Assembly: GCF_963675165.1 (NCBI RefSeq)
Contig: NC_087381.1
Coordinates: forward strand, 5,333,378 to 5,397,377
Length of the DNA stretch: 64,000 bases
Direction: 5' to 3'
Origin: Halichondria panicea
Taxonomy: Eukaryota; Porifera; Demospongiae; Suberitida; Halichondriidae
Both the position numbers and the translations under genes were made by a program. This document shows positions 34,758-37,832 of the stretch, in pieces (the stretch's first letter is position 1; each line of letters begins with the position of its first letter). The notes below the pieces were generated by a model, which worked only from the letters and a program-made list of their open reading frames with translations, made no database searches and was not told the DNA's origin.

Positions 34758-37700
34758 CTAATACCAAATTGTATCATTAAAGGTGTCTCGTGCTATATTC
34801 AGTATTTTCAGAATGTCCTGAGCGCATTTTTCAGATCCAATTAACTCCAGACATTTAATGAGCTCGTAAAAGTGTTTATCACAATCTCCGATACGCTCTG
34901 CAATTACTGTCGTAAGATAATCAGCTCTTTCATGATCAGCGGTACTACTACTAAACTCATCCAAGGCTCCGTAATTGCTTTCAGAAATGACATTTTCGGC
35001 AAACAGGTGATCCCTAAGTCGGAACAAGTAAGTTGGATTTTTTTGTAAACACTCGACAAGCTGAGGTGTAACACTTAAAATTGCATTGTGCTCAGGGCTA
35101 TTTGCACCATCGTTCTCATGGCGGGGTTGCTGCTTAGTGCTGGATGCTGTTGGTGGAGGCTGACGATTTCTTCTGAAAAATGTAGAAAACGACTTCGATA
35201 TTTGTGACAGCACAGATGGTTGAGGAGTCAATTCTGTAGAAAAAAATTCATAATAGTTGTAAAGGGTCAAGATGTATTGGAAGGTCAGTACCTAAAAGCA
35301 GTTGTACAAATTCCGAGGTATACAAGTGACTATAATGACAACACCACAAATGATAATAATACCCTTTGATCTTAATAGGATCGAAGCCAGCTGGCCAAGT
35401 ATGCATGTCTATCCATCATGCATCCATACATATTACAGTCTGTGATGGACAATGCACATGCATGCACGGGTATATATATCATAATTATGTGCATGACTTA
35501 ATTGTATGTTACCTGCAACGACAAAGTAGCAGCGAGGAGAGTCTAGATACAGCGCCAATGTCTCTCCTTGAGATTGGATTCTTTGTGGTTCAATTAGTGA
35601 GAAACTGAACACAGGTGCACTACGATTTGCCTCCCAGTGCGTGGGTATGCATGAAGCTTGTAATACTTGCACACTTCCTCGTCTGTTTTGCTGTCGGTAC
35701 TTTGTCAAGCGAACTTGTATTCCGTGACGTATCAGGGAAGCATCAGTCATGACTATGTTTATCATATAAACACTACTAATAAGAGAGTAGCCTTGAGGGA
35801 AAATGAACGACGATTTTGATGGATCGTAGACATTAACGGACACAGTTAGATCTTGGTCTTGCGGGATTGCTTCTACAGTACTGACCTGGACACCCTCAGC
35901 ACTCCAGATGGCCTCCTTTTTCACACTGTTTAGACATTCATTGTCTAGTCTATTAAGGTAGTCATCTTTACCTGCACAGTTAAACGTAAGTTAGCCAATA
36001 CATAAACATAATTAATGTAGCTTACAAAGATGGAGTATTGGTGATTGTGGTAGATTGTAGGTGGATATTACTTGGCCATCTTCAAGTATCTCGCATCGAT
36101 CAGCAGCGCAGTAAAACAGCTGTTGTCTACTTGGTTCGAGTCGTTGTTGACAATACTTTCCAATCCAACTTTTTAGGGTACCAACTTTGTCATTTGGGTG
36201 GAATTGTACCTCATTTCTGAAGCCTGTAAAACTTTCAACGTATAGCTTTTTTAGCACCAATAAAGTAATAGGAGTGTCATCACTTTCAATTCCATAATCT
36301 TTTAACTGACACGTTTCATACATCTCCTGGCCTTTAAACATTAGTCTCTGCTCACTGAGAGGTGGGTTGCCTAAAGCAGCTGCTGATATTCTCGCTTTTA
36401 AAGCCAGTACAACTTCTTCAGGGTAAATGTTTAATGTTACTCGTTCACTGTTGTGTTGTACACATACAAGTTTGGGACCTTTTGTTCGTACAATATGCAC
36501 CGTCTGTTCTTGGAGTATACCACAATCTTGTAACTTATCATCATCAGCAAGTATTTTTTCCTGGAAGATTATTTCCTGCTCCTCAATTGGTAACTGATTT
36601 CGTTCAGCTTTATTGACTAAGTCTTTCAATTCCCATATCTTGCTACTGGGCTTGACAGCAATATCCACTGATCGACCATCCGGCAAATGAGCATAGATTT
36701 GTATGTCTGTTTCACGTAATCTGAAAACAAGGCGTAGTGTGCTCTCTTTTTGAATATTGTAATCGGACAATGTCCGACCATCTTCGAGTTGCTTTCCAGC
36801 AAATATCAAACGCTGCTGATCTGGTGGGATTCCTTCTTTGTCTTGAATTTTGGTCTTCACATTTTCAATTGTGTCTCTAGCTTCAACTTCGAGAGTGATC
36901 GTTTTACCAGTCAAAGTCTTAACGAATATTTGCATTCCTCCACGGAGCCGGAGTACTAAATGACATGTGTCTTCTTTTTGTATGTTGTAATCGGACAATG
37001 TCCGACCATCTTCGAGTTGCTTTCCAGCATATATTAAAATCTGCTGATCTGGTGGGATACCTTCTTTGTCTTGAATTTTGGTCTTCACATTTTCAATTGT
37101 GTCACTAGCTTCAACTTCGAGAGTGATGGTTTTACCTGTCAAAGTCTTAACGAATATTTGCATTCCTCCGCGGAGCCTAAGTGCTAGATGAATTGTGCTC
37201 TCTTTTTGAATGTTGTAATCCAATAATGTTCGACTACCCTCAAGTTGCTTTCCAGCAAATATCAAATGCTGCTGGTCTGGTGGGATACCTTCTTTGTCTT
37301 GAATTTTGGTCTTCACATTTTCAATTGTGTCACTAGCTTCAACTTCGAGAGTGATGGTTTTACCTGTCAAAGTCTTAACGAATATTTGCATTCCTCCGCG
37401 GAGCCTAAGTGCTAGATGAATTGTGCTCTCTTTTTGAATGTTGTAATCCAATAATGTTCGACTACCCTCAAGTTGCTTTCCAGCAAATATCAAATGCTGC
37501 TGGTCTGGTGGGATACCTTCTTTGTCTTGAATTTTGGTTTTCACATTTTCGATTGTATCACTGGTTTCAACTTCAAGGAAAATGGTTTTACCAGTCAAAG
37601 TTTTAACGGCTATTCGAAGTTGCACATCCACAGTGCCTCCGTGCTCCACACCACAAGCACTGAGAGTCAACTCATTTTGTAGACACTTGGATCTCGAGGT

Positions 37701-37832
37701 CAGAAAGAAGTGTTCAGGTGGAATACCTTCTTGATGATGGATCTTGGATTTCACTGTCTCCACTATATGGTCAGCATCCACATCGATTGGTATCACCTTA
37801 CCAGTGGGAGTTTGATAAAATAGCTGAGACAT
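34758..37832 (-). CDS. Octa-ubiquitin-like, ZU5-like, CARD-like fusion protein
   Basis: Three exons (37832-36026, 35971-35513, 35233-34758) join in phase to 913 aa. The N-terminal ~600 aa are eight tandem ubiquitin-fold domains. UBL1 is divergent. UBL2-5 are close to ubiquitin and keep K6, K11, K27, K29, K33, K48 and K63. UBL2-4 end LRLRGG, each followed by [14 protein letters not shown]5 ends RLRETD and so loses the diglycine. UBL6-8 are divergent. Exon 2 encodes a beta-rich segment with [19 protein letters not shown] and [12 protein letters not shown], resembling ZU5. Exon 3 gives a basic/proline linker and a helical bundle ([19 protein letters not shown] ... [13 protein letters not shown]) read as a CARD/death fold. 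The ATG at 37832 is the first in frame. A role in ubiquitin-linked death-fold or innate signalling is inferred. UBL2 and UBL3 are nearly identical in DNA, so duplication or conversion is recent. Confidence 0.85.

Follow-up and report, generated by a model that had tools for sequence, protein, structure and literature searches.

Can a gene that resembles polyubiquitin over most of its length encode a signalling adaptor? The question is raised by a minus-strand gene of the sponge Halichondria panicea, at positions 34758-37832 of a 64,000-base window (the whole stretch of DNA analysed here, C5:5333378-5397377 within the 131-Mb assembly), in which eight tandem ubiquitin folds are followed by a ZU5-like and a CARD-like domain. 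The computation supports the exons, the domain folds and a gene family. Judged by its sequence, the anatomy itself, with ubiquitin array, ZU5 and CARD in one gene, is almost certain; the array may act as a built-in ubiquitin chain.

Gene structure

The joined frame of the three exons (37832-36026, 35971-35513 and 35233-34758; 1807, 459 and 476 bases) encodes 913 residues, with a calculated mass near 103 kDa and a single terminal stop, and both introns (54 and 279 bases) are of the GT-AG type and in phase 1. An earlier note on this DNA had proposed one gene with three phase-consistent exons; these properties, together with the same junctions in six genes and in three NCBI models, bear it out. 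The features of the gene are as follows.

36026-37832, minus strand: exon 1, coding for eight ubiquitin-like domains in tandem; phase 1 at its end, the donor GT at 36025 having the same placement as in the paralogs
35972-36025, minus strand: intron 1, 54 bases, GT-AG, phase 1; contains an in-frame stop at 36012-36014
35513-35971, minus strand: exon 2, with the ZU5 domain at 35966-35514
35234-35512, minus strand: intron 2, 279 bases, GT-AG, phase 1; placed by splice signals and paralog comparison
34758-35233, minus strand: exon 3, a 43-residue linker (35231-35103), then the CARD and the stop
34761-35102, minus strand: CARD domain, 114 residues, with six predicted helices; placed by structure comparison

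The order along the product is thus eight ubiquitin folds, ZU5, linker and C-terminal CARD, with about 310 residues downstream of the array. Protein database matching, which required shared 5-residue words and similar length, gave nine distinct proteins. One (P0004, 606 residues) is the unspliced window frame ending at 36012; those named Halichondria panicea were P0001, P0007, P0008 and P0009, a result of a word- and length-limited search that says little on other sponges.

The ubiquitin-like array

Pfam found eight ubiquitin stretches in exon 1 (504 bits in total), in agreement with the eight ubiquitin-fold repeats read from the letters in the earlier note. They are of two kinds.

37620-37832, minus strand: ubiquitin-like domain 1, divergent, 28/76 identical to human ubiquitin
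37392-37619, minus strand: repeat 2, near-ubiquitin, 65/76 to host and 64/76 to human ubiquitin; ends LRLRGG
37164-37391, minus strand: repeat 3, near-ubiquitin, 70/76 to host and 68/76 to human ubiquitin; ends LRLRGG
36936-37163, minus strand: repeat 4, near-ubiquitin, 72/76 to host and 70/76 to human ubiquitin; ends LRLRGG
36708-36935, minus strand: repeat 5, near-ubiquitin, 71/76 to host and 69/76 to human ubiquitin; tail RLRET, without GG
36477-36707, minus strand: ubiquitin-like domain 6, divergent, 24/76 to human ubiquitin
36249-36476, minus strand: ubiquitin-like domain 7, divergent, 21/76 to human ubiquitin
36027-36248, minus strand: ubiquitin-like domain 8, divergent, 20/76 to human ubiquitin

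Repeats 2-5 retain all seven lysines, L8 and I44; repeat 2 is altered at M1, Q2, F4 and T14. LRLRGG/M stands at three joints, between repeats 2 and 3, 3 and 4, and 4 and 5, and by their letters repeats 2-5 with these joints may form either a built-in linear chain or a cleavable one. In a polyubiquitin precursor the repeats would be identical or nearly so to the host's own ubiquitin; here only repeats 2-5 are near to it, and 1 and 6-8 are far. Nor does every joint read GG/M with few residues after the last GG. The true polyubiquitin genes of the host lie elsewhere (L033 and L034), and their ubiquitin differs from the human one by P19A and A28T, and in two copies by E24D too. They contain six and five LRGG motifs, terminal motif included. 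Elsewhere the motif occurs four times in a related frame (P0003), once in paralog A (as LRGGG), twice in B, once in C (plus one RPRGG) and three times in P0005; none is found in D, E, L028, L030 or P0006.

Neighbouring repeats share 87-93% DNA identity, yet the synonymous distance (dS) of repeats 4 and 5 to the nearest host ubiquitin copies is at least 1.7, and that of repeats 2 and 3 is beyond measure. Because of this high mutual identity at large distance from the host copies, we read repeats 2-5 as probably reshuffled among themselves, not freshly captured from host ubiquitin. The P0003 frame (682 residues, nine ubiquitin folds), located on another contig (271,852 bases), resembles window exon 1 plus one 76-residue repeat; given this extra repeat, haplotypes, individuals or close copies may differ in the length of the array.

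The ZU5-like and CARD-like exons

Exon 2 had no Pfam match, including to PF00791, when the window, C, D and E copies were scanned. Despite this, comparison of its predicted structure matched solved ZU5 folds, the best being those of ankyrin, which favours the earlier description of the exon as ZU5-like. The exon 2 profile was also linked to sponge ZU5 domains at E 2.1e-4, in an alignment that spans residues 20-92 only. A profile search of the PDB by sequence gave as its best match a xylanase (E 0.44). The window gene has no UPA domain after the ZU5, since the exon 3 linker before the CARD is only 43 residues long.

The self-cleavage motif of the FIIND/ZU5-UPA supramodule is [HS]F/S near the last ZU5 strand. 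An SFS at exon 2 residues 121-123 suggested self-cleavage like that of NLRP1/CARD8. We tentatively set this candidate aside because SFS lies in an earlier predicted strand than [HSR]F[SC], which is found near the domain end in 8 of 10 sponge ZU5 domains; the corresponding place in the window reads PRCYF (by eye).

For exon 3, the earlier note had called the helical end CARD-like and staked this on a structural match to a death fold. Six helices are predicted, as in a CARD-type death fold, and in the structure comparison CARDs take the top rows of both Foldseek and VIA, the best solved ones being those of Apaf-1 and caspase-9; paralog C has a Death domain at the same place. By sequence, Pfam gave CARD only, below its cut-off (PF00619, E 0.17, 12.4 bits versus 23.9), while a sponge CARD relative in L042 reaches 19.1 bits. 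The PDB profile search placed a Dps protein first (E 0.044) and the Apaf-1 CARD behind it at E of about 1. Distant rows were placed by trying CARD alignments A5-A10, of which A6 was used. Three further copies of the CARD exon lie in tandem behind paralog A (L022:6413-6670, 8059-8316 and 9450-9728), two of them with an internal stop.

A family of array genes

Exon 2 was found at six genomic places: the window, A (C5:5319304, 83% identity), B (C17:3496701, 79%), C (C5:317310, 36%), D (C2:7413883, 27%) and E (C2:8152413, 31%). All six copies are preceded on the same strand by a long ubiquitin-like frame. By eye, the donor of intron 1 splits the Cys codon of an LxLC motif and that of intron 2 comes directly after a conserved Ala codon, in phase 1, in 6/6 genes. 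The NCBI models P0001 (A), P0007 (D) and P0008 (E), named polyubiquitin-like or polyubiquitin-C-like, splice the array to exon 2 likewise. Because there are six copies with shared intron positions, and the NCBI models use the same junctions, the order of array and ZU5 and the junctions themselves are more than chance. Exon 2 of the window and of A share 83% protein identity, while neither intron nor the upstream flank matched A in BLAST (at 54 bases, intron 1 is short for this tool).

The tails are more varied. The window, A, B and D have a CARD-like tail; in C it is replaced by a Death domain (25.3 bits versus a Pfam cut-off of 22.6), and E has a Death exon (24.2 bits alone; 18.4, below the cut-off, within P0008) followed by a CARD-like exon. 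Three more arrays have Death-like exons without an exon 2 match: L028 (Death at 17.6 bits, below the cut-off), L030 (no Pfam match) and L029 (Death-like by alignment only). A PDB profile search by sequence with the Death-like set gave no match up to E 1. In L027, nine ubiquitin folds are present, and the frames of at least 80 residues include no tail; L031 and L032 resemble other proteins (by eye). With an iterated profile we counted 8 ubiquitin folds in the window gene, 6 in A, 6 in B, 12 in C, 8 in D, 8 in E, 9 in L027, 7 in L028 and 5 in L030, L029 being left out.

Within a few kilobases of paralog D, on the opposite strand, are two Pfam ZU5 matches and a CARD (C2:7412002-7422796; L025, L047). 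This cluster may represent the P0009 gene or a copy of it, and shuffling from it could have supplied the ZU5-CARD end. The CARD of D had at least 97 matches in its own genome at E 0.01 or below (best 150 of 172 candidates scored). For the Death domain of C, all 150 of the best 150 of 581 candidates matched; they lie on C7, C13, C5, C3 and others, many of them clustered on C7 and C13, and by these sequence matches the host genome holds a very large Death-domain expansion. On the minus strand of L035:1-4301 a CARD-like domain heads a 1177-residue frame that is helicase-like further on (by eye).

Selection on the exons

We estimated the ratio of non-synonymous to synonymous substitution (dN/dS) by the Nei-Gojobori method with bootstrap intervals. 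For exon 2 it was 0.50 (0.26-1.05) between the window and A, 0.42 (0.26-0.74) between the window and B, 0.33 (0.18-0.61) between A and B and 0.37 (0.21-0.68) between D and E; exon 2 is thus constrained in three of four pairs. Ubiquitin-like domains 6, 7 and 8 gave 0.59, 0.71 and 0.67. Between the window and A, the CARD gave 1.15 (0.60-2.61) and the linker 0.74 (0.24-3.06); the D-E value for the CARD was 0.71 (0.27-2.16). Exon 3 of the window and A differ at 64 of 444 aligned bases with zero stops (1727 of 2000 neutral runs produced one), and their three indels are of 3, 6 and 9 bases. Decay of exon 3 is therefore disfavoured.

Function of the array

Ubiquitin chains promote RIG-I CARD assembly. 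In vertebrates, the meeting of ubiquitin chains with CARD assemblies requires ligases, deubiquitinases and readers. The sequence leaves us evenly divided on whether the near-ubiquitin repeats serve as a pre-made chain scaffold in a CARD adaptor. The adaptor, seemingly intracellular, would carry its eight ubiquitin folds in front, then one ZU5 and a short linker, and would end in the CARD. Repeats 2-5 would be a ready-made head-to-tail ubiquitin chain attracting proteins with ubiquitin-binding domains, and the array might aid CARD clustering in the way that RIG-I is helped by ubiquitin chains or by ubiquitin-like domains in tandem. In this way CARD assemblies would receive a ubiquitin platform and need no E3 ligase for it. 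Partners would bind the CARD through CARDs of their own; the same genome has as candidates some CARD-like frames of TRADD-N-like type, along with a predicted membrane protein that carries a ZU5 and a related CARD. As a tentative generalization, somewhat on the doubtful side, members of the family would each have a tandem array in which 5-12 ubiquitin folds are detected, a ZU5 in some cases, and a CARD or Death tail that can be exchanged; the array, an encoded linear-type chain differing in length between haplotypes, individuals or close copies, would nucleate CARD or Death assemblies and recruit readers ligase-free.

The array could, however, be a maturation or expression device, cut by deubiquitinases after LRLRGG at its three joints just as ubiquitin-ribosomal protein fusions are cut after ubiquitin. 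This would release two ubiquitin-like units and leave an N-terminal piece as well as a fragment running from repeat 5 through domain 8 to ZU5 and CARD. Intact LRLRGG/M joints, three in the window, four in P0003 and two in B, speak for such processing. Cleavage nevertheless seems dispensable, because A and C have one LRGG each and D and E none, yet array and ZU5 stay joined; the absence of any LRGG from D and E also favours the scaffold. R42 of ubiquitin is a contact of E1 and of deubiquitinases, and it is lost in all three repeats that precede an LRLRGG/M joint (H, H, I and R in repeats 2, 3, 4 and 5). At the protein level, moreover, repeats 4 and 5 have diverged from the nearest host copy (non-synonymous distance, dN, 0.065 and 0.071) versus at most 0.023 among the host copies themselves. 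We consider a processed precursor unlikely.

Uncleaved ubiquitin fusions go to the proteasome by ubiquitin-fusion degradation, and in NLRP1 and CARD8 degradation releases a CARD fragment. The array might be a built-in degron: either CARD levels would rise only once turnover is blocked, or degradation would free a CARD fragment cut within the ZU5. The 43 residues between exon 2 and the CARD are too short for a UPA domain, and the PRCYF of the window and the early position of its SFS speak somewhat against a release of the CARD by this route. We regard the degron reading, in either form, as improbable. That there is not one gene at all, only an array pseudogene, or a transcript ending at 36012, beside an unrelated ZU5-CARD gene, seems more improbable still, to the point of being barely credible. 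The in-frame stop just beyond the exon 1 donor, where the P0004 frame ends, would fit it, as would an exon 3 dN/dS near 1 and a paralog B CARD in two frames; but order, phases and splice sites are identical in six genes, three NCBI models join array and ZU5, and all three exons are open.

Several results weigh against the scaffold. The three LRGG/M joints may be open to cleavage, repeats 2-4 no longer have R42, and in repeats 2 and 3 an A stands in place of V70. A search for the NEMO CC2-LZ region gave 14 partial matches, none above the cut-off, and one for the OTULIN family gave no match, with no control scoring either. The gene's own spliced protein was absent from the matches of the protein database searches. 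Structure models had 5 and 4 sequences behind them, and of the five for exon 2 two were of poor quality; in Foldseek neither the ZU5 nor the CARD model had a match at E 0.001, and alignment A6 has one helix out of register in two of its rows. The B CARD is split over two frames (L023:3490-3952, minus strand), by a frameshift or an extra intron, and P0008 reads the CARD-like exon of E in a different frame. The window-A interval for exon 2 passes 1, exon 3 gives a dN/dS of 0.99 between the same two genes, and the CARD ratios give no support for purifying selection.

A family in an early-branching animal that has chain and death fold in one polypeptide would provide natural constructs for asking whether a fixed chain suffices to nucleate CARD or Death assemblies. 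It also means that 'polyubiquitin-like' names in sponge annotation can conceal signalling adaptors.

Other features of the window

A tandem repeat with a 19/38-base unit lies upstream of the gene, at 38277-38519. At 33295-33438, four perfect copies of a 36-base unit stand within an open frame. Two facing frames, 11368-12180 (plus strand) and 14703-15470 (minus strand), encode sulfotransferases (Sulfotransfer_2). The frame 3069-3689 (minus strand) matches COR-A below the cut-off (23.8 versus 35.3 bits) and is perhaps a Roco protein.

Comparison with known systems

Like polyubiquitin genes of the UBB/UBC type, the window gene has 76-residue head-to-tail repeats and keeps three LRLRGG/M joints; unlike them, it has four near and four far repeats and a ZU5-CARD tail, and the true polyubiquitin genes are separate from it. 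PIDD, UNC5, ankyrin and NLRP1/CARD8 have ZU5-UPA-Death/CARD architectures. In these proteins, too, a ZU5 precedes a C-terminal death fold, but the window gene has a single ZU5, no UPA, no self-cleavage motif at the matching place (by eye) and a ubiquitin array in front. P0009 (sponge LOC135332050) shares a ZU5 recognized by Pfam (37.9 versus a cut-off of 21 bits) and a CARD with 74% identity to the paralog D CARD; it has a signal peptide and a membrane helix (by eye) in place of the array.

The paper on fusions of TRADD-N with polyubiquitin is said to be by Kaur et al. 2021. The parts of it available list polyubiquitin among the domains fused to DEDD2-like TRADD-N and report 357 NCOA6-type TRADD-N proteins in the sponge Amphimedon (PMC8195603). 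The likeness is that polyubiquitin is joined to an adaptor domain of death and immunity; the difference is that the adaptor is a TRADD-N of the DEDD2-like clade, array-ZU5-CARD not being mentioned in those parts (PMC8195603). The earlier note knew of no described family with this order. An array-ZU5-CARD or array-ZU5-Death architecture was indeed not met in the open-licence literature, among the matches listed; these TRADD-N fusions, as far as the available parts describe them, and the presence at NCBI of three paralog models with polyubiquitin names qualify that claim (PMC8195603). In other sponge work, as far as the available text goes, a Dysidea avara NLR paper refers to NACHT-Zu5 genes and names ubiquitin in the legend of an NLR figure (PMC12909245). 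In the part available of a Halichondria proteome study, the level of a 'ubiquitin C protein' fell upon exposure to Vibrio (PMC12345144); one of these array genes could encode it. A Halichondria lipopolysaccharide transcriptome study discusses ubiquitination genes, and the word ZU5 is nowhere in its main text as available (PMC8242945).

OASL offers another comparison: according to the available part of the source, its two tandem ubiquitin-like domains enhance RIG-I signalling by polyubiquitin mimicry (PMC6019448). As there described, these domains are C-terminal, behind an OAS-like domain, and ZU5 and CARD are not part of the protein, unlike in the window gene. What the two would share, again by that partial account, is that an immune protein contains ubiquitin folds fused in tandem, which in OASL are held to replace a chain (PMC6019448). 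Repeats 2-5 keep L8, I44 and the seven lysines; by analogy with OASL, the array may act on a CARD protein in place of a chain.
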